Positions 24,195 to 35,414 of a DNA stretch of 35,923 nucleotides are shown in pieces. Where the stretch lies: positions 1 through 35,923 of the forward strand of contig JAQICC010000399.1 of assembly GCA_027858735.1 (NCBI GenBank), read 5' to 3'. Positions within the stretch are counted from its first letter, which is position 1; each line of letters opens with the position of its first letter. The translations under genes and the position numbers were made by a program. Below the pieces are notes generated by a model. That model was not told where the DNA came from and did no database searches. It saw nothing but the letters and a program-made list of their open reading frames with translations. The stretch is from Salinivirgaceae bacterium (lineage in GTDB: Bacteria; Bacteroidota; Bacteroidia; Bacteroidales; SZUA-534).

Positions 24195-25172
24195 ATGACA
24201 GATAAAAAGGAAACTCCTCAAGAAATTGACTTGATTGAATTATTTACCAATATTTTTAATTGGCTAGGAAAACAAATTCAATGGGCATATAAAATTGGCT
24301 TACATATTTTTTACTTTGGTGTGCGAAACAGTCCTTGGTTTGCTCTTTCCATTATATTAGGTGCAGCTGTAGGGTATTTTCAAGTAAAAACAACAGAACC
24401 CTACTATAAATCAGAATTAGTCGCATTTTCACATACAATCGACAATGTTGAAATCATTAAAAGCATTAACAATTGGGATTATTCAAAAGCTTTTGGAGAG
24501 GATACTTTAGAAAGCATAAAAAAAATTGGCGCTACCTATGTACTCGATATCAATAAAGATGGCATATGGGACGTGGTTGAAGATATTGAAACAGTGGAAA
24601 CACATGATTCTGTTACTGTAAAACAACGGCAATATGGAAATTTTTGTGTGCAAATTGAATTTAGCGATACCCTTGGATTTGAATATATTCCTGCCATTAA
24701 AGAAAAAGTATTAAACTATGTAACCAATAATAAAAGGGTTAAAGAAAGAAACTATATTAGATTAAAACAACAACAAGAGCTTATTCCAAGACTTCAAAAG
24801 GAAATGGCAGAGTTGGATAGTTTAAAGCGAACTGAATATTTCGGTAAGCAAAAAGACAAAACTGTAAAATTTGGTGAAGTTTTATTGGTAGGTGAAAAAG
24901 AAACCAAACTTTATCACAATGAAGTATTAAACCTTTACAAACAACAACAATCCTTAGAAAAAGCTTTATTATTGTATAAAGATCCTATTGAGCTTGTTCT
25001 GGATTTTTCAGTACCCGTTTTAGCAAAGGATAAGAAAACTGAACGCATGGTTAATCAATATACCAAACTTGGTTTTTTACTTGGGTTACTAATCATTACC
25101 ATAATTGACCGTCGTAAATTTGTATTTGCACAAATAAGAAGATCTAAGGAAGAGAATATTGACAAAAACTAA
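24195..25172 (+). CDS. Wzz-like membrane protein (putative chain-length regulator)
   Basis: This 325-residue protein has the layout of polysaccharide co-polymerases. A cytoplasmic/amphipathic N-terminus leads to a membrane segment (FALSIILGAAVGYF, about 49-62). A large external region includes a coiled coil around LKQQQELIPRLQKEMAELDSL, and a second membrane segment (LGFLLGLLIITII, about 294-306) sits near the C-terminus, followed by a short basic tail. Sequence similarity to Wzz is weak and a P-rich TM2 motif is absent, so this is a topology-based call. It is convergent with the polysaccharide locus and ends at a strong terminator. It could be the chain-length partner of that locus, or an unrelated membrane protein. 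Confidence 0.55.
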   Translation: MTDKKETPQEIDLIELFTNIFNWLGKQIQWAYKIGLHIFYFGVRNSPWFALSIILGAAVGYFQVKTTEPYYKSELVAFSHTIDNVEIIKSINNWDYSKAFGEDTLESIKKIGATYVLDINKDGIWDVVEDIETVETHDSVTVKQRQYGNFCVQIEFSDTLGFEYIPAIKEKVLNYVTNNKRVKERNYIRLKQQQELIPRLQKEMAELDSLKRTEYFGKQKDKTVKFGEVLLVGEKETKLYHNEVLNLYKQQQSLEKALLLYKDPIELVLDFSVPVLAKDKKTERMVNQYTKLGFLLGLLIITIIDRRKFVFAQIRRSKEENIDKN

Positions 25173-25219: not shown

Positions 25220-25699
25220 CTATATCTTTTTTGCAGGAACTCCTACTACAGTAGTATTCTTTTCCACAGAACAATTAACCAAGCTAGCAGCTCCAATAAT
25301 GCTTTTTTCTCCTATTATTAATTTCTCTTTTCGGGTAATTATATTGCAGCGCATGCCTATATAGACACCATCATTAATTTCAATAAATAGCCTTTGTTGC
25401 CCTTTACCATGCAATGCAAAATAGCATCCATATGAAATGGTAACGTTTGAACCAATTACAGTATGAGACGGCTCTGTATCATCTAAATAGCATTTCATAC
25501 CAATAAAAGTATTTTTGCCAATTTTAAAACCAATTAGCCTATACATAGCTATACGAATTCCATTAAATGGAATATTTGGAATAATAACCACATTCAAATA
25601 TTTTCTAATGGGTCGCCATAATATTAAATGCAACGAATACTTAGCATAATAGGGTATCTCTTTGCCTTTTGATCGATAATAATACTCCAGAATTCTCAT
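25220..25699 (-). CDS. Hexapeptide-repeat acyltransferase
   Basis: This 159-residue protein has a left-handed beta-helix of hexapeptide repeats, for example IGKNTFIGMKCYLDD, IGSNVTISYGCYFALHG and IIGEKSIIGAASLVNCSVEKN, ending in VVGVPAKKI, the usual end of WcaF/CysE-type acetyltransferases. It would transfer an acetyl or other acyl group to a sugar in the cytoplasm. The basic N-terminus with IIPNIPFNGIRIAMYRLIG resembles O-acetyltransferases of capsule loci. It is the last gene of the minus-strand polysaccharide locus, 3 bases after the GT2 gene. The acceptor is not known. Confidence 0.85.
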   Translation of the reverse strand: MRILEYYYRSKGKEIPYYAKYSLHLILWRPIRKYLNVVIIPNIPFNGIRIAMYRLIGFKIGKNTFIGMKCYLDDTEPSHTVIGSNVTISYGCYFALHGKGQQRLFIEINDGVYIGMRCNIITRKEKLIIGEKSIIGAASLVNCSVEKNTTVVGVPAKKI

Positions 25700-25702
25700 A
25701 AG

Positions 25703-26692
25703 CTACTTCCTAAAATTATATATCGAAAGAGCTCCCATTATGGAACCCCATCCGTATGAAAAATGCAAACACAAAAAAGAATACATTAAATAGAAAAAGT
25801 TTTGCCCCTTACTATTTACATATATAAATACCAATAAACTGAAATAAGATAATAAAGAAACTCCAGCAATTATCAATATCCAAGGTGAGAAAAAGAAAAG
25901 CAACAGACATGGTATTAGGAGCGATAAAACAAAAAATAATGGGATAAAATGCCGTAAGCCCAAGGATGAAAATTTGCGGGTAATGCTCAAGGTTTTTAAA
26001 TTCCAATAACCATTTCCATAATTATTTCTTGCCAAACCCATAAAAGTTTCTCGTGCATAATAAGTGCATTTTAATGTGGGATCCATCCAAATATGGTAAC
26101 CAAAAGATTTAATTCTACTCGATAATTCCATATCATGATTTCGAATTAATTTTTCATTATACAACCCCACTATATCAAATAGCTCCTTTTTATATAAGCC
26201 AAATGGTACTGTATCTACTTCCAATAATTCATCAGCTCCCGTACGAAAGGTTGAATTACCAACACCAAATGGATGGGACAATACGTAACATATAGCGTTC
26301 GATTTTACATTTTCATGTTTTGATTTCGTTTCCAAAACTCCTCCAACCACATCTATATTATCACTTTTTATTAATTGATACAAAATAGCGATATAGTTAA
26401 GCGGGTAAACAGCATGGGCTCCTGCAATTAAAACGTAGTTGTACTTAGCATTCTTAATACCTAAATTGAGGGCAAAAGGTGTTTTCTGTTTTTTATTTTT
26501 TATCCATTGTATGCATGAATATTTTACTTGATAAGTAGAAACAATCTCCCTTGTTTTGTCGGTACTACCTCCATCAACAACCAGAACATCAAGCAAATCG
26601 ATATTATAGCCATTTAAAATAAGTCCATCCAAACATTCGCCTATATATTGCTCTTCGTTAAGGCAAGGAATAACTATTGAAACACCTTCCAT
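25703..26692 (-). CDS. Family 2 glycosyltransferase with C-terminal membrane segments
   Basis: This 329-residue GT-A-fold glycosyltransferase has SIVIPCLNEEQYIGECLDGL at the N-terminus, VLVVDGGSTDKTREIV (DxD-like, binds the nucleotide sugar) near residue 40, and NEKLIRNHDMELSSRIKSFG (acceptor/catalytic ED-like region) near 190. Hydrophobic helices at about 245-325 anchor it in the membrane, as in ExoA-type enzymes. It would add one sugar to the lipid-linked repeat unit on the cytoplasmic face. The start codon overlaps the stop of the preceding GT4 gene by one base (TAATG), which indicates translational coupling. Donor sugar and linkage cannot be told from the sequence. Confidence 0.92.
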   Translation of the reverse strand: MEGVSIVIPCLNEEQYIGECLDGLILNGYNIDLLDVLVVDGGSTDKTREIVSTYQVKYSCIQWIKNKKQKTPFALNLGIKNAKYNYVLIAGAHAVYPLNYIAILYQLIKSDNIDVVGGVLETKSKHENVKSNAICYVLSHPFGVGNSTFRTGADELLEVDTVPFGLYKKELFDIVGLYNEKLIRNHDMELSSRIKSFGYHIWMDPTLKCTYYARETFMGLARNNYGNGYWNLKTLSITRKFSSLGLRHFIPLFFVLSLLIPCLLLFFFSPWILIIAGVSLLSYFSLLVFIYVNSKGQNFFYLMYSFLCLHFSYGWGSIMGALSIYNFRK

Positions 26693-27810
26693 TAATTTAA
26701 TAATTTTTGATAAAGACTCACCAATTTTTGTTCCTCCGATATCCAGTTATATTTTAATGAAACTGATTGTAATCCATTTTTACTCATACTTTGCAATTCT
26801 TCGGTATTCTCTAAAAATTCTACGATTTTAGGAATCTCATCATCAATTTTTTCAATATTTATGCAAATTCCTGCCCTTGTTTTATTGATATAATTTTCAT
26901 ATAAAGGAAAATTGCATAGTATTATGGGCAATCCAAATTGCATGTATTCAAACATTTTTGTAGGTAATGATTCCAAATAATTGGCAACGGGTTTTAAAAA
27001 TACCAACCCAATATCGGCATTTTCTAAATAACTTTGAATTTGGGTAAATTCTATTTTTCCAACTAGTTCAATCTGTTCAGTTAACCCATGCTTATTTATG
27101 TATTTGATTATTTCACTTTTCAAGTTGTCAGAGAATATCTGCCCAACAATTTTTAAAGCACATACAACGTTATGCTGATTTAGCTTTTCAACAAGTTTTA
27201 TCATTTCCCATACGCCTCTATTCTCCGATACTCCACCTGTATAAACGAAGCTATGAGGTTTCTCAAAATTTCTTGTAGCTGAAATATTATCAATCAGAAT
27301 AGGTAAATTAAGCACCACTGTTGATTTCAGTTGTGGATAGTACTTCAAATAAGAATCTTCGGCTAAGACCAAAGCATCGAAAAACAAAATACTAAACCTT
27401 TCCACAAAAAAATAGATTTGTCGCACAAAAGGCTTTAAGCAATTTGGCAACCAATCTTTGGAAGAGATAGAGAGTCGAACATTTTCATGCACATCAAAAA
27501 TTACTTTTTTGCCACTTAACTTAAGCAGAATACCAGAAAGCATTAACTCAGGGTCATGAAAATGAAAAATTACAGCTTTTGTTTTTAGCGCCATCTTTGT
27601 CATTTTAAAGGTTACTGCCAGCATTCTACCTAATCTATTTTTGGGTAAATTATTCGAAATTACTTCAATACCATTTCTAACTTGATTGGATGCTATGGGA
27701 GCTACTAAACACACCTTATATCCAGCATTTTTAAGGCTTATACATTGCTTATGAAATATCCTTATGTCGAATGGAGGGTGAACTGATGTAAGGTGACAAA
27801 TCTTTTGCAT
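26692..27810 (-). CDS. Family 4 (GT-B) glycosyltransferase
   Basis: This 372-residue GT-B enzyme begins KICHLTSVHPPFDIRIFHKQ, a phrase common to polysaccharide GT4 enzymes. The C-terminal donor-binding half carries FVYTGGVSENRGVWEMI and, in PTKMFEYMQFGLPIILCNFP, the E-rich nucleotide-sugar site. There is no signal peptide and the protein should act on the inner-membrane cytoplasmic face. It overlaps the flippase stop and the GT2 start by one base each, so three genes are tightly coupled. Which sugar it transfers is unknown. Confidence 0.93.
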   Translation of the reverse strand: MQKICHLTSVHPPFDIRIFHKQCISLKNAGYKVCLVAPIASNQVRNGIEVISNNLPKNRLGRMLAVTFKMTKMALKTKAVIFHFHDPELMLSGILLKLSGKKVIFDVHENVRLSISSKDWLPNCLKPFVRQIYFFVERFSILFFDALVLAEDSYLKYYPQLKSTVVLNLPILIDNISATRNFEKPHSFVYTGGVSENRGVWEMIKLVEKLNQHNVVCALKIVGQIFSDNLKSEIIKYINKHGLTEQIELVGKIEFTQIQSYLENADIGLVFLKPVANYLESLPTKMFEYMQFGLPIILCNFPLYENYINKTRAGICINIEKIDDEIPKIVEFLENTEELQSMSKNGLQSVSLKYNWISEEQKLVSLYQKLLN

Positions 27811-29105
27811 TAAGAATTCAGATTTTTTTGTTTTAATCGCTTTTCGTATTGATGCAATATACTAAAATTAATAATGCCTGCCACAGCAAAGGCTATTACG
27901 TCAACAACCACATAAAGCTTAAGAAATGATTCAATATTTTCAAAATCAATAAAAAATAACGATACTATTAAAATAAAATAAAATGTCTGCCATAAGGATC
28001 CTATCCCTATTCTTTCAAAAGCTATAAAACTTGAATTAAAAGGCGAAACAACAAACTTAATTGCAAAAGACCAGATTAAAATTTGCGCATAAACACCCGA
28101 ATTTATCCAAGTTTCACCAAAAACCAAAGAGAATATCGGTATCCCAAAAAACTTTATTATCAGTATAAATAGGAGAGCTCCCAGCATTAAAATAAAAAAC
28201 GTTCCTAGCGCATCTTTTTTCACCGATTGCTTATTATTTTTCTTTTGCACAAATTGCTGAACTAATATTTGATTTAATGAAACAGCTATTAATGATAAAG
28301 GGATAATCAATATGCCCCTTGCAAAATCAAAGTATGCAGTTACTTCTGCACTAAACAACCTACTTATCATTATAATAGGCAATAGCCTGCTTATGGCATT
28401 CATTAAGGATGGTAAGGCATTAGATAATGGGAATTTTTTATACTCATTTGACAATTGTGAAATTGTCAATGAATTATCAGCAGCATCCCAACACTTCATT
28501 TTCCCTATATTTCGAATTGTTCTAAAAATTATAACAATATGACCTATTATATCCCCTATAACTAATCCAAAGCCTTTACCCCAATACCCTACAACTGTCT
28601 GTAATCCACCTTCAACAAACCTTCGAACTACTTTATTTGAACCTGATGTTGAAAATTTTTTTAATCGAATTAAAAAGTAATTTAACGCTTGATATGTTGA
28701 GAATATGAATATTGTAATCGGTAAATAAACCAACCAGGAGGAATAGTTTGACGACAAACCAATCAAATTCATAAAGTGAGTGCCAAAAAAGAATAATATG
28801 ATTGCAAAAAACAATACAAATACTGAAGAAATTAAAATGGATAACTTTGTGAGTTTATACCCATCAATATCTGATTTTGGTAATACAATAGCTTGTTCAT
28901 ATCTTAATGAGGCAATCGTAATAGCAATACCAACAACACTCATATAAACCGCAAAGGCACCAAAATCTTCTGGAGAATACAGCCTTCGTAGTACTACTTG
29001 AAAACCAACATACACTAATTGAGCAATTACGGTACCCGAAACAAGTATGCTTAGGTTTTTAGCAATCGGACTTTTCAACAAGTTAATTAGCTTAAGTTTC
29101 GCCAA
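27810..29105 (-). CDS. Polysaccharide flippase (Wzx-like, MATE/PST family)
   Basis: This 431-residue polytopic protein has about 12 membrane segments and the polysaccharide-synthesis family opening (SPIAKNLSILVSGTVIAQLVY). A stretch RYEQAIVLPKSDIDGYKL is typical of Bacteroidota Wzx-like flippases. It would move the undecaprenyl-linked repeat unit from the cytoplasmic to the periplasmic side. The start is a TTG at 29105: an in-frame stop lies two codons upstream and the first ATG would remove the first membrane segment. The stop overlaps the GT4 start by one base. The 144-base gap after the aminotransferase gene shows no obvious terminator. Confidence 0.9.
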   Translation of the reverse strand: MAKLKLINLLKSPIAKNLSILVSGTVIAQLVYVGFQVVLRRLYSPEDFGAFAVYMSVVGIAITIASLRYEQAIVLPKSDIDGYKLTKLSILISSVFVLFFAIILFFFGTHFMNLIGLSSNYSSWLVYLPITIFIFSTYQALNYFLIRLKKFSTSGSNKVVRRFVEGGLQTVVGYWGKGFGLVIGDIIGHIVIIFRTIRNIGKMKCWDAADNSLTISQLSNEYKKFPLSNALPSLMNAISRLLPIIMISRLFSAEVTAYFDFARGILIIPLSLIAVSLNQILVQQFVQKKNNKQSVKKDALGTFFILMLGALLFILIIKFFGIPIFSLVFGETWINSGVYAQILIWSFAIKFVVSPFNSSFIAFERIGIGSLWQTFYFILIVSLFFIDFENIESFLKLYVVVDVIAFAVAGIINFSILHQYEKRLKQKNLNS

Positions 29106-29249: not shown

Positions 29250-30383
29250 TTAACCATTCAATGTCTTTACTATGGTAGAGACTACTCGTTCTTTTTGTTC
29301 ATCGATTAAACTTGAGCCTGAAGGTAAACATAAGCCGATATTAAACAATTTTTCGGAGGTTCCATCAACATAAGCCGGGCTCTTCTCAAAAACGGGTTGC
29401 ATATGCATGGGTTTCCATAAATGACGGCTTTCAATATTTTCAGCATCTAGCGCCCAACGAATATCCTCACCGGAAACTCCATTTGTTTTTTCGGGATCAA
29501 CCAAAATAGTGGTTAACCAATAATTGGAATATGCCCTTGGCCGTTGTCTTAAAAACGAAATTCCTTCAAATTTACCCAGTTGCGATAAGTAAAAGTCAAA
29601 GTTTGCCCTGCGTTTTTTCACCCTATTCTCAATAACCTCAAGCTGTCCCCTTCCTATACCAGCTACCACATTGCTCATCCGATAATTATACCCAATATGC
29701 GTATGATGATAATAAGGAAAATCATCTTTTGCTTGTGTCGCTAAAAATCGGGCTTTTTGTATCCATTCCCGATTGCGTGAGATTAAAGCCCCCCCCCCAC
29801 TACTGGTAATAATTTTATTTCCATTAAATGAAATTATTGAAATATCACCCAAAGTACCACAGCGTTGATCTTGGTATTCACTACCTAAGGCTTCGGCTGC
29901 ATCCTCAATAATAGGTATTTCATATTTATCGGCTATCTCGCGTATAGGTTTCATTTTAGCAGGCATCCCATAAAGGTGTACCACAATAATTGCTTTGGGT
30001 TTTTTACCCTTTCCTATTCTGTCAACAATAGCTTTCTCCAACAATTCCGGACTCATGTTCCATGATTCGCTATCACTATCTACGAATATGGGAATTGCTC
30101 CTTGATATACAATTGGATTAACACAAGCTGCAAAAGTAAAAGAAGGTGCTAATACCTCGTCACCAGCCTTTATACCTAAGGTAATTAGCGCCAAATGAAT
30201 TGCAGCCGTACCCGAAGTTAATGCCAAAACGTGAGGAATACCCAGATATTCGCCTAATTCCTTTTCAAAACCAATTAAGTTTGAACCTGCAGGGGCTATA
30301 TAATTCTCATCGAAAGCCAGTTGGATATATTTTTGCTCTTCACCACTCATATGTGGAGGAGAAAGCCAAATTTTTTCTTGCAT
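29250..30383 (-). CDS. PLP-dependent sugar aminotransferase (DegT/DnrJ/EryC1/StrS family)
   Basis: This 377-residue enzyme transfers an amino group to a keto-sugar nucleotide, giving an amino or 4-amino-6-deoxy sugar for the polysaccharide. It opens with KIWLSPPHMSGEEQKYI and has the family core ALTSGTAAIHLALITLGIKAGDEVLAPSF. The PLP lysine is K190 in SFNGNKIITSSGGGAL. The adjacent glycines G196-G198 are encoded by GGG GGG GGG followed by GCT, a run of ten G that could slip. It is closest in style to PglE/LegC-like enzymes, but the substrate is not certain. The matching dehydratase is not in this window. It is first in the run leading to flippase, GT4, GT2 and acyltransferase. Confidence 0.93.
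   Translation of the reverse strand: MQEKIWLSPPHMSGEEQKYIQLAFDENYIAPAGSNLIGFEKELGEYLGIPHVLALTSGTAAIHLALITLGIKAGDEVLAPSFTFAACVNPIVYQGAIPIFVDSDSESWNMSPELLEKAIVDRIGKGKKPKAIIVVHLYGMPAKMKPIREIADKYEIPIIEDAAEALGSEYQDQRCGTLGDISIISFNGNKIITSSGGGALISRNREWIQKARFLATQAKDDFPYYHHTHIGYNYRMSNVVAGIGRGQLEVIENRVKKRRANFDFYLSQLGKFEGISFLRQRPRAYSNYWLTTILVDPEKTNGVSGEDIRWALDAENIESRHLWKPMHMQPVFEKSPAYVDGTSEKLFNIGLCLPSGSSLIDEQKERVVSTIVKTLNG
29789..29798 (-). repeat. Homopolymer of 10 G in the aminotransferase coding strand
   Basis: The plus strand has ten C in a row, so the coding strand has ten G covering codons 196-198 and the first base of codon 199. In a genome this AT-rich, a G10 tract inside a gene is exceptional. 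Gain or loss of one base would shift the frame about halfway through the enzyme. Confidence 0.9.
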
Positions 30384-30525: not shown

Positions 30526-31113
30526 TTAGTCATCTCTGAAAACATCGTCAAGTATGATTTCAAGCTCTGGTAATATTCCTACCCTTACCTTATCACTTTT
30601 TACATATTTTGCATCAAACTGATATTTTCCTCTTTTATCCAGTTTAAAAACATCTACCATGTGTTCTCCCGGGTAAACCATCCAGTATTCTTTTACTCCT
30701 TGTTCCTGATAAAGTTGGAATTTATCCTTAGTATCTTTTTCTGCAGTCGATGGTGATAAAATTTCAATAATAAAATCAGGAGCTCCTATACATCCCCGAT
30801 CATCTAATTTTGACTTGTCGCAGATAATACAAATATCAGGCTGAACCACGGTGTAAGTTTCCTCGTCTGAATTACCTTTTGGAAAGCGCACATCAAAAGG
30901 AGCTGAAAACACACTACAAGGTTTTTTATATAAAAAACTGCTTATTTGTCTAAACAAATCCCCTGATGCTTCTTGATGCTTTCTTGCTGGTGCTGGTGAC
31001 ATTTTAAACAAACGTCCTTTTATTATTTCAATTCGTTCTTGAAACCTCCAAGTAAGATATTGAGCATAATTATAGGTTTTATTTATATCTAATGATGAAA
31101 TATTTGTTTCCAT
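30526..31113 (-). CDS. Uma2-family (DUF820) protein, copy 1
   Basis: This protein of 195 residues is in the Uma2 family of putative PD-(D/E)xK nucleases. The core is VVQPDICIICDKSKLDD, then GAPDFIIEILSPSTAEKD and KFQLYQEQGVKEYWMVYP, the family hallmarks with the acidic residues and the lysine of a restriction-nuclease-like fold. I chose the ATG at 31113, which aligns with the paralogue at 33267-33845. An upstream TTG at 31143 would take ten codons out of a CACGAATT repeat and is unlikely. The family's function is not known with confidence. It lies on the coding strand of the polysaccharide locus between repeats R1 and R2, 72 bases downstream of the fusion gene's stop. Confidence 0.88.
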   Translation of the reverse strand: METNISSLDINKTYNYAQYLTWRFQERIEIIKGRLFKMSPAPARKHQEASGDLFRQISSFLYKKPCSVFSAPFDVRFPKGNSDEETYTVVQPDICIICDKSKLDDRGCIGAPDFIIEILSPSTAEKDTKDKFQLYQEQGVKEYWMVYPGEHMVDVFKLDKRGKYQFDAKYVKSDKVRVGILPELEIILDDVFRDD

Positions 31114-31126
31114 ACCTTTATATTTT

Positions 31127-31160
31127 ACCACGAATTCACACAAATTTACATTAATTATTT
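31127..31160. repeat. CACGAATT-type intergenic repeat (R2)
   Basis: CCACGAATTCACACAAATTTACA is a degenerate copy of the three-unit repeat, immediately upstream of the first Uma2 gene. It overlaps the alternative TTG start of that gene. Confidence 0.6.
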
Positions 31161-31184: not shown

Positions 31185-33125
31185 TTACAAGAATTTGTCT
31201 TCATGCATAGATTTCCCATTTGCGGTTAAGGCGATTATTTTTAAATCAAGCAAGAGTGACCATTTTTGCATGTACTTTTTATTCACTAAGACTTTATCAG
31301 GAAAAATCACCTTGTCGTTATATTCTTTTGGGTTACCTTGCTTAGCCAATAAATATTCTTCATGCATATATTTTAACGATGCAGCTCCAGTTAAGCCTGG
31401 TTTCAATTGTAAAATAATTCTATCGCTACCTTCTAGCACATCTGCATAGCCCGGCACATCAGGACGAGGCCCAACAAAACTCATATCACCACGAATAATA
31501 TTCCACAACTCTGGTAATTCATCAAATTTATATTTTCGCATAAATTTTCCAAATCGAGTAATTCTGTTTTGTTCTTGTGCTGCCACAGTAGTATTCGATT
31601 TTACTTTTTTCATACTGCGGAATTTGTGCAGTTTGAACGATTTACCATTCTGACCAATACGAACCTGAGTAAATACTACAGGCCATCCCATGGTAAAACT
31701 TACAAACAATACAATTATTACAAGTACTGGGGACAATACAACAATGGCAATAGTCGCTAATAAATAATCAAAAGTTTCCTTGATAAATTTACTTCCAGGC
31801 TTACTCAAGTTAGGAACCAACTTCAATTCACTAATTTCCTGATGGCGAACCAAAAATGAGAGTGAAAAAAGAAAAAGGAATATGGGTACACTGAAAATAC
31901 TATTCCCGCTAAAAAATATAAAGAGGGTACAAACAAAAAGCATCATGGCAAATAGAGGATGCTTATTGAAATACAAAACACTATAATAAAAAGACACAAA
32001 CAAAAAGAAGAGCACAAAAATAGCGCCTAGTATGCCTGAATATAGTAGCGCTGATAATACAGGATTATGTGGATAATCAATTCCAGTTCTATATTTTTCT
32101 CCAAAATCTGTTAAGTAACCAAACCCATTTCCAAAAATTTTTTCTGTTATGGAGTAGTCCTCAAATAATTGTAATGCAAAATCCCATTTCTTTAATTGAT
32201 ATGCTAATTCATTGATCTTTATCTTATCATCATTGAGAGCTGACTGATCGAAGCCAAAATAATTGACCAACCAGTTTTCTTTCTGTTCGGGGTGACTATT
32301 CCATTGGTATATTGCGAATCCTGCAAAAATAACAAAAACAATGGTTGGTATTCTTAGGTTTGAAGCCAAAGAAGTGTTTGACTTATTATGATGGAAAATT
32401 TCCCTTAATTGGACAATGATTAAGACTATAAGGAGCAATAGCAAAAGTATGACACTCCTTGTGGAAAAAGAAAAAACAATATTTAAAATTAAAAGTGATG
32501 CCAACCCTAAGAGCACTACATTATCAGCAATTCCGCCTTTTTTCTGAGCTCGTGGAAAAAGTCCGGTTAAACCTAAAAAAGAATATAGGGCATAGAAATT
32601 TTTATCGTCATTTATAGAAGTCCCCCAGGGTGTTTCAATAGGTATGTGAATATGTAAAAGTTGTAAGGTAAATTTTGACAGCCCTATAGTTGCTACTATA
32701 ATTGAGGTTACCCAAATAACTCGACTCATTCGTCGAAAAACCCAAAAAAATCCTTCGTTATTCTTTGAATAATAGGTTAAAGCAAAAAATATAAATAAGA
32801 AAAAAAAATTTACTGCGTATTCAAGCAAATCACGAAAAGGTTTGTCATAAAACTGATCAGAAAGAAAAATTCCAATACAAAAAAATAATCCCATAAAAAT
32901 TAATGGGTTAAAAGTCTTTAGAAACTCAAAAATATATTCTTTCCGAAAAAGGTTTTCTTTTAATGAGAATAATGTGGCTATAAGTAAAATTCCAACAGAA
33001 GGTAAAAAAAGGTATTTAATTCCAGGTAATACCATACGTAAGAACCATAGCGCAACGCTTATTTGAAAAAGGCGGTTTACCAGCTTGGTTTTATCAATTG
33101 AAATTCGGGAAATTTTATTCTGCAT
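31185..33125 (-). CDS. Fusion of O-antigen polymerase/ligase-like and initiating sugar transferase domains
   Basis: This single 646-residue frame joins two enzymes that are normally separate. Residues 1 to about 430 form a polytopic domain like O-antigen ligases/Wzy polymerases, with many helices and the external loop motif PHNPVLSALLYSGILG (P352, H353, N354). From residue 446 a monotopic phosphoglycosyl transferase of the PglC/WbaP-C type begins: membrane-associated FIKETFDYLLATIAIVVL, KFRSM at 501-505, then FDELPELWNIIRGDMSFVGPRP with the catalytic pair D535-E536. The frame is continuous, and no start or stop lies near the junction. The C-terminal half would start the lipid-linked repeat unit in the cytoplasm, and the N-terminal half would polymerise or ligate it outside. 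It lies between two Uma2 genes in the polysaccharide locus. Confidence 0.88.
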   Translation of the reverse strand: MQNKISRISIDKTKLVNRLFQISVALWFLRMVLPGIKYLFLPSVGILLIATLFSLKENLFRKEYIFEFLKTFNPLIFMGLFFCIGIFLSDQFYDKPFRDLLEYAVNFFFLFIFFALTYYSKNNEGFFWVFRRMSRVIWVTSIIVATIGLSKFTLQLLHIHIPIETPWGTSINDDKNFYALYSFLGLTGLFPRAQKKGGIADNVVLLGLASLLILNIVFSFSTRSVILLLLLLIVLIIVQLREIFHHNKSNTSLASNLRIPTIVFVIFAGFAIYQWNSHPEQKENWLVNYFGFDQSALNDDKIKINELAYQLKKWDFALQLFEDYSITEKIFGNGFGYLTDFGEKYRTGIDYPHNPVLSALLYSGILGAIFVLFFLFVSFYYSVLYFNKHPLFAMMLFVCTLFIFFSGNSIFSVPIFLFLFSLSFLVRHQEISELKLVPNLSKPGSKFIKETFDYLLATIAIVVLSPVLVIIVLFVSFTMGWPVVFTQVRIGQNGKSFKLHKFRSMKKVKSNTTVAAQEQNRITRFGKFMRKYKFDELPELWNIIRGDMSFVGPRPDVPGYADVLEGSDRIILQLKPGLTGAASLKYMHEEYLLAKQGNPKEYNDKVIFPDKVLVNKKYMQKWSLLLDLKIIALTANGKSMHEDKFL

Positions 33126-33266: not shown

Positions 33267-33845
33267 TTACGCAAAAACTTTGGTAAGGTCTATTTCAAGA
33301 TCATTGAAAATATTGACTTTTAATCTATCTTGGTTGGCATATTTGCCTGAATGAATATATTTATTTTCTTCATTTAAAAGAAAAACATCTACCATTTCAT
33401 CTTCCGGCGCAACAATCCAGTACTCTCGAACACCAGCTTCTTGATAAATTTCAAATTTTTCATGAACATCTTTCTGGGCTGTTCTGGGTGATGAAATTTC
33501 GATAATGAAATCAGGAGCACCATTACATCCCTGATCATCAAGCTTATTTAAATCGCATATTACACATAAATCAGGTTGCACAACTGTGTATGGATTATTA
33601 TTATTCTCTAGCGGTAACCTTACATCAAAAGGAGCTGTATAAACTTCGCATTTTTTATTATCGAAATAGTTCAATAATATTCTTGATAATTTAATTGATA
33701 TTTTCTGATGCCTACGAGCCGGAGCCGGTGACATTCTATAAATTTTACCTTTAATGAGTTCAACACGTTCCTGAAAACGCCACATTAAATAATCAGCGTA
33801 GGTATAAGTTTTATTTGGATCGAGTAATGAGATATCTGTAATCAT
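33267..33845 (-). CDS. Uma2-family (DUF820) protein, copy 2
   Basis: This 192-residue protein is a paralogue of the gene at 30526-31113; by eye about half of the positions match. Shared blocks are MSPAPARRHQ, VVQPDLCVICDLNKLDDQGC, GAPDFIIEISSPRTAQKD and KFEIYQEAGVREYWIVAPE. It therefore has the same putative PD-(D/E)xK-like core. The ATG at 33845 fits the other copy's start. It is on the same strand and lies upstream of the fusion gene, while the other copy lies downstream, so the fusion is sandwiched between two directly oriented paralogues. Repeats R3 and R4 bracket it. Function unknown. Confidence 0.88.
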   Translation of the reverse strand: MITDISLLDPNKTYTYADYLMWRFQERVELIKGKIYRMSPAPARRHQKISIKLSRILLNYFDNKKCEVYTAPFDVRLPLENNNNPYTVVQPDLCVICDLNKLDDQGCNGAPDFIIEISSPRTAQKDVHEKFEIYQEAGVREYWIVAPEDEMVDVFLLNEENKYIHSGKYANQDRLKVNIFNDLEIDLTKVFA

Positions 33846-34433: not shown

Positions 34434-35414
34434 TTAATCCTTTGGAAAAGCAAAAATTTTATCAACCCTCCAATTCACAAAGAAAAGCAATCCTATTGAT
34501 ACTATCAATGCCATAATATCTTGTTGCAAATAAAAATGATTTAATAAAACTATTCCTATAAGCATTAAATTTATAATAATCGCATAAATATCCACCTTCA
34601 AATGAGACCATCCTGCTCTAGTTAACCTTTGATATCCATGCTTACGATGCGCTTTACTTAGTTGTTCTTTATTTTTCCATCGTCTGAATAAGGTGTAAGT
34701 TGCATCAAACCAAAATAGAGAAGTAAGTATTAACCAATTAACCATATTCAATTCTAACGAATTGTGAAAGTAAATTCCAAGCACTATAAGTATAAAGCCC
34801 AGTTGCGTACTACCCACATCGCCCATAAATATTTTTGCTTTGGGCCAGTTCCAAACCAAAAATCCAGCAACAGCTGCTATTAACAATCCTAAGAATGAAC
34901 TTCCTGAAATAATAAGCATTCCTACCGTCACTAAAATCGCTTCTTGAGATGCATAGGCATCAATTCCATCAAGGAAGTTGTAAAGATTTATAAACCAAAT
35001 GATTCCAATAAAAGCCCCAAACGTAAATATCCATAGCACAAATGGATTTTGTATCTCTGGTAATAAATTAAACCCACCTAAGAAATACAAAGCTCCTGCT
35101 GCAGAAATAGCCTGAGCTAACATACGAACCTTGGGTGTTAAGTCTAGTACGTCATCAAATGCACTTACTATTGCTAAAACAATACCTGAGAGTAATGCGA
35201 AAAATAAGTTTTGTTCAATCTGTCCTTTCCAAAACAAATAACCTAAGCCTAAAAACCAAACTATTACAATGGCTAAACCTCCACCACGTGGTGTTGGTAT
35301 GGTGTGAGAACTGCGCTCATTGGGATTGTCAATAATGTTTTTTTTGAGGGCAAGGAGGCGGACTAAGTAGGTTAGAGCGACGGAAAGTATAAGTGATATT
35401 ATATAAACTATCAT
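34434..35414 (-). CDS. Undecaprenyl-phosphate sugar-1-phosphate transferase (WecA/MraY family)
   Basis: This 326-residue polytopic enzyme transfers a sugar-1-phosphate (often GlcNAc-1-P) from a UDP-sugar to undecaprenyl phosphate, which starts polysaccharide synthesis. It has family signatures KNIIDNPNERSSHTIPTPRGGG, FDDVLDLTPKVRMLAQ, the catalytic-site phrase NLYNFLDGIDA and WPKAKIFMGDVGSTQLGF. The C-terminal loop KAHRKHGYQRLTRAG is also typical. About ten membrane helices are visible. It is the first gene of the minus-strand locus, with the fusion gene's PGT domain downstream as a second possible initiator. Which one starts the actual polymer is not decided by the sequence. Confidence 0.93.
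   Translation of the reverse strand: MIVYIISLILSVALTYLVRLLALKKNIIDNPNERSSHTIPTPRGGGLAIVIVWFLGLGYLFWKGQIEQNLFFALLSGIVLAIVSAFDDVLDLTPKVRMLAQAISAAGALYFLGGFNLLPEIQNPFVLWIFTFGAFIGIIWFINLYNFLDGIDAYASQEAILVTVGMLIISGSSFLGLLIAAVAGFLVWNWPKAKIFMGDVGSTQLGFILIVLGIYFHNSLELNMVNWLILTSLFWFDATYTLFRRWKNKEQLSKAHRKHGYQRLTRAGWSHLKVDIYAIIINLMLIGIVLLNHFYLQQDIMALIVSIGLLFFVNWRVDKIFAFPKD

Follow-up and report, generated by a model that had tools for sequence, protein, structure and literature searches.

A predicted Bacteroidales membrane protein that joins a WaaL/Wzy-fold domain to a small monotopic phosphoglycosyl transferase

Introduction

Can the enzyme that starts a surface-glycan repeat unit and the enzyme that takes the finished unit off its lipid carrier be parts of a single polypeptide? 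The question is raised by a gene in a 35,923-nucleotide contig from a Salinivirgaceae bacterium (JAQICC010000399.1, assembly GCA_027858735.1; the whole of this stretch is called the window), whose product was originally predicted to be an O-antigen polymerase or ligase fused to an initiating phosphoglycosyl transferase (PGT). PGTs form the bond between undecaprenyl diphosphate (Und-PP) and the first sugar of the unit, referred to as sugar 1, and Wzy- and WaaL-type enzymes break this bond as they hand the chain over. Our analysis supports the premise of the prediction, namely that one reaction opens the pathway and the other closes it, and that they take place on different sides of the membrane. 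Here we ask whether the fusion is real, whether both halves are likely to be active, and what the N-terminal half does.

Results

The fused gene occupies positions 31185..33125 on the minus strand. Read from 33125 to 31185, the frame contains 646 codons, followed by a stop, with zero internal stops, whereas the plus strand over the same interval is riddled with stops; the predicted uninterrupted 646-residue frame is therefore correct in its coordinates, and its strand is the minus strand. The protein is divided into an N-terminal polytopic domain (residues 1-432; 31830..33125, minus strand), a linker (residues 433-448; 31782..31829, minus strand) and a C-terminal PGT domain (residues 449-646; 31185..31781, minus strand), and the PHN (352-354), KFRSM (501-505) and D535-E536 motifs are all found at the positions given for them. 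A Pfam search for PF02397 and PF04932 in one chain gave a strong answer for the first family and a weak one for the second. PF02397 matches residues 449-635 (E 3.5e-52, 177 bits versus a cut-off of 27) and is covered from model position 1 to 174 of 179, its full core, and all eight aligned fused proteins match it. PF04932 matches residues 209-371 of the window protein with 26 bits (E 8.6e-6), which is under its cut-off of 31.7; five of eight fused homologues match this family at E<=0.01, the best at 4.7e-9.

The source assembly is fragmented (452 contigs), and a missed frameshift or misassembly at the junction could in principle have created the fusion. However, the same in-frame junction is present in ten genomes, the window's included, that span three families within a single order, taken to be Bacteroidales on the strength of named relatives, so that an artefact has a negligible probability and the fusion is not an assembly error. 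The nine other fused proteins are 42-67% identical to the window protein. Full-length fusions occur in 5 of 20 genomes of the window's family (G000, the window's own genome, as well as G009, G007, G002 and G004, whose proteins are 67%, 60%, 58% and 48% identical to the window protein, respectively), and the fusion is found in 2 of 6 genomes of a second family (G360 and G107) and 3 of 25 of a third (G115, G817 and G814). Contig ends cut two of the ten, G107 at the N-terminus and G814 in the first PGT helix; the junction is read through in all ten, these copies included. A thin phylum-wide sample of 395 genomes held zero further members. A scan of genome contigs gave no matches when the window protein was the single query and four named relatives when the alignment was used, all metagenome-assembled genomes, labelled Marinilabiliales, Salinivirgaceae (two) and Rikenella microfusus. 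The last label (L047, DYQV01000022.1) is probably wrong.

To view the two halves as folds, an AlphaFold2 model was built from 27 sequences (pLDDT 85.8, pTM 0.81). It contains two folded domains joined by a low-confidence stretch at residues 436-444, within the linker. By fold comparison, residues 13-432 match the O-antigen ligase WaaL (7tpg; Z 17.2 over 366 residues, rmsd 5.6), followed by the SEDS proteins FtsW and RodA (Z 8.6-11.7), with unrelated proteins below 7. This likeness comes from the fold comparison, as the N-terminal profile had zero matches among solved chains when searched by sequence. The C-terminal half has a predicted long helix (445-479), the reentrant helix region of the PGT, and residues 442-639 match PglC (8e37) with Z 19.8 over 180 residues at 31% identity. 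WbaP (8t53) matches with Z 19.7, its alignment being confined to residues 439-639. The chain as a whole does not fit a large, WbaP-like PGT: its N-terminal part is a WaaL-type domain in place of a four-helix bundle plus DUF, the WbaP alignment is confined in this way, and full-length family models score below their cut-offs. As each half has its fold and its catalytic residues, the two-domain claim of the original prediction is upheld. The membrane topology is no obstacle to such a fusion: both termini of WaaL are in the cytoplasm, so a WaaL-type fold is expected to end on the side that is proper for the PGT.

Conservation among the fused proteins bears on whether each half is likely to be active. 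The C-terminal domain carries the D-E dyad, K-x-R and PRP motifs of the monotopic PGT (monoPGT) superfamily. Within KFRSM (31611..31625, minus strand) K501 and R503 are invariant, as are the catalytic dyad D535-E536 (31518..31523, minus strand), R554 and P555, in all nine fused proteins that reach these residues; the first proline of the PRP motif is replaced by threonine in G360 and G107. In the N-terminal domain, the conserved Arg and His of the Wzy_C active site are present, judging from the alignment. R223 of the Wzy_C region (32457..32459, minus strand) and the P352-H353-N354 motif of the predicted periplasmic loop (32064..32072, minus strand) are invariant in all ten fused proteins, and so are G332 and G334. 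R223 and H353 were matched to the WaaL active-site Arg and His by motif position, without superposition, and the role of R223 is one that we assume by analogy with WaaL. The PGT half could instead be the only catalytic one, with the polytopic half acting to anchor the chain in the membrane or to provide a docking platform, much as may be true of the four-helix bundle in large PGTs, a reading to which the sub-threshold Wzy_C score of the window protein lends itself. We regard it as very improbable, since all ten proteins keep R223, G332, G334 and P-H-N, the other nine being 42-67% identical to the window's, and the model retains the entire WaaL fold. Outside the PGT domain, the most conserved part of eight fused proteins is residues 405-436, directly before the junction, where mean pairwise identity is 0.83, compared with 0.36 over the whole Wzy_C match and 0.73 in the PGT catalytic part.

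The gene lies in a conserved cluster. The first pathway gene encodes a PglE-like sugar aminotransferase (29250..30383, minus strand; PF01041) whose best solved relatives are 1o61 (E 9.3e-96) and 4ztc (E 5.7e-95), which we take to be C. jejuni PglE. It is followed on the minus strand by a Wzx-type flippase (27810..29105; PF01943/PF13440) that is kept in the cluster, GT4-type (26692..27810; PF00534) and GT2-type (25703..26692; PF00535) glycosyltransferases, and a hexapeptide acyltransferase-like protein (25220..25699; weak PF00132, with a NeuD/PglB/VioB-type match below cut-off). Conserved beside the cluster, on the plus strand (24195..25172), is a candidate Wzz-like chain-length regulator that is hydrophobic near both ends; it has no confident Pfam match (Pfam Wzz at E 1.1 only, in two of four homologues), and its model is of low confidence. 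Upstream of the fusion lies a WecA/MraY-type polytopic PGT (34434..35414, minus strand; PF00953), as in G002 and G007. Two Uma2-family genes that are 57% identical (30526-31143 and 33267-33845, minus strand; PF05685) flank the fusion and look like insertions into the cluster; one of them separates the fusion from the aminotransferase in the window and in G009. The order fusion-PglE-Wzx-GT4-GT2 is found in G002, G004 and G115, and with the insertion in the window and G009; G360 and G107 retain the fusion, PglE and Wzx, G007 retains the fusion and PglE only, and G817 has an extra Wzy-like gene between PglE and Wzx. Directly upstream of the fusion in G115 is a PglD-type acetyltransferase gene, with homologous genes there in G360 and G004, which suggests that the first sugar is a 4-amino sugar. 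In G000 there is only one other PF02397 match, within a 498-residue frame of large-PGT size, and small-type PGT function in that genome would thus rest on the fused chain. Single clusters in G115, G360 and G817 (L065, L066 and L102, respectively) contain two monoPGTs, one of them fused, and three Wzy-like proteins, which suggests that two kinds of lipid-linked unit are made there in parallel.

These data leave the reaction of the N-terminal half to be weighed, because WaaL is the sole member of its superfamily among the solved-structure matches and the fold consequently cannot tell a polymerase from a ligase. We favor, at about an even chance, a bifunctional membrane enzyme of one surface-glycan pathway whose N-terminal half is most likely a polymerase. 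Gene content in G000, G007 and G009 counts for polymerase: the extra Wzy_C protein of ~430 residues seen in other clusters was not found in them, and they retain a separate Wzy_C-type protein of ~540 residues, a candidate ligase. Clusters with longer unfused N-terminal-domain relatives, on the other hand, often include a further polymerase candidate (O-ag_pol_Wzy in G006, EpsG in G143 and a weak Wzy_C in G007), so the N-terminal family may not be 'the' polymerase. That co-occurrence, together with WaaL being the nearest solved fold, counts for a ligase, or for a transferase that does not polymerise the unit begun by its own PGT but moves it once, as a block, onto another polysaccharide or lipid A-core. 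This would resemble a scheme proposed for P. gingivalis, in which a special linker unit is donor-only and ends in one copy (PMC13086638). The G000 genome has ~150 matches to TIGR04183, the type IX secretion C-terminal signal, and in P. gingivalis a linker saccharide attached to O-polysaccharide holds cargo of this kind in place (PMC13086638), which also counts for ligation or block transfer. We nevertheless consider ligation or block transfer rather unlikely, as the separate ~540-residue candidate ligase is present in G000, G002, G004, G007, G009 and G115, and the neighboring aminotransferase is closer to PglE than to WbpE. Because of the latter observation, we also decided against a direct equivalence with P. 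gingivalis A-LPS.

The gene set further resembles the Neisseria pgl locus (PGT, PglE-like, flippase, two glycosyltransferases and Wzy_C, with PglD-like in some genomes), and the cluster might then be a protein glycosylation locus whose N-terminal half is a protein O-oligosaccharyltransferase. This appears quite improbable, given that the Pfam matches of the window protein and its homologues include no PglL-specific family and that the Wzz-like candidate sits beside the cluster.

Genomes with unfused relatives indicate how the fusion may have arisen. In G006, which belongs to the window's family, a 618-residue relative of the N-terminal domain adjoins a 191-residue PGT gene at a distance of ~190 nucleotides, and in G042, G250 and G328 a PGT, PglE and a longer relative (~1,125 residues) are in one cluster. 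Separate genes for the two halves thus already share clusters in unfused relatives, a 'Rosetta stone' sign of functional association. The PGT tree groups the fused domains with the stand-alone PGTs from a single genus (97/88, one outgroup row included), and the data do not reject a single clade for the fused domains (p-AU 0.37). Stand-alone PGTs fall among fused ones, so the Wzy half may have been lost later. Some relatives of the N-terminal domain (L043:7386-9239, L069:5516-7375, L039:6307-8238 and L068:406-2313) have an insert of ~150-200 residues where the fused proteins have a short loop, and the start of the insert (N-L-x-x-N-G-D) resembles a carbohydrate-binding module; further relatives are longer still, at 831-1127 residues.

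Discussion

In the mechanism that we infer, the C-terminal monoPGT half would use a UDP-sugar, probably that of a bacillosamine-type amino sugar, to place a sugar-1-phosphate on undecaprenyl phosphate (Und-P) at the cytoplasmic face. The neighboring GT4 and GT2 enzymes would lengthen the unit, and the neighboring Wzx would flip it. The N-terminal WaaL/Wzy-fold half, most likely a polymerase with a periplasmic active site, would then transfer the unit from Und-PP. As the kind of bond that a PGT makes is the one that a Wzy breaks, the two halves need compatible specificities for sugar 1 and the carrier, and the fusion may serve to tie together enzymes in which these match, at a fixed 1:1 ratio.

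It was originally proposed that lipid-carrier release by one half feeds a new start by the other. The Wzy/WaaL reaction leaves Und-PP in the periplasm, which becomes available to a PGT only after dephosphorylation and a return flip; because the chain is without a pyrophosphatase (or other phosphatase) domain and a carrier flippase domain, the idea is unsupported as stated. One chain that makes and breaks the same kind of Und-PP-sugar bond, each on its own face of the membrane, could allow the state of the periplasmic polymerase to gate the cytoplasmic starter. We think this distinctly unlikely, but if it were true, new units would be started no faster than completed ones are consumed, and the shared carrier would not be tied up.

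The individual domains have well-known counterparts, and the fused protein differs from each in its architecture. Small monoPGTs such as Campylobacter PglC are alike in catalytic domain, D-E dyad, fold and PglE-like neighbor, whereas PglC stands alone. Large monoPGTs (WbaP/WcaJ) share the C-terminal catalytic domain; however, their N-terminal part consists of four transmembrane helices and a DUF, in contrast to the full WaaL/Wzy-type domain seen here. WaaL and Wzy of the Wzy_C superfamily share the fold over residues 13-432, the conserved Arg and the His-containing loop, but they are normally stand-alone, whereas here the domain is extended C-terminally by a PGT. Neisseria PglB is a PGT fused to an acetyltransferase, a cytoplasmic partner that helps to make the first sugar. 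In both proteins a PGT is thus fused to a partner from the same pathway, and in Neisseria that partner is cytoplasmic. Proteins with a functional domain fused N- or C-terminally to a monoPGT core form a recognised class, the Bi-PGTs (PMC10942596). The present chain falls within this definition, its partner being presumed functional from the conserved motifs, and it differs from other Bi-PGTs in that the partner is polytopic and would act at a late step on the opposite membrane face. No description of a Wzy/WaaL-PGT chain was found in the literature searched, whose coverage ended short of the main class survey (O'Toole 2021). The Bi-PGT class is known and the Wzy/WaaL pairing appears to be a new addition to it, although databases may already contain the architecture unremarked.

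PGTs have been termed gatekeepers that are likely to be regulated (PMC10942596), and post-translational control is incompletely understood (PMC12802240). How initiation is matched to polymerisation in Wzx/Wzy pathways, without locking up undecaprenyl phosphate, is likewise poorly understood. A covalent link between a starter and a Wzy/WaaL-type enzyme would mean that both can operate side by side, and it would offer a tractable single-chain system. The fusion also suggests that the specificities of the PGT and of the polymerase or ligase for the first sugar have evolved jointly.
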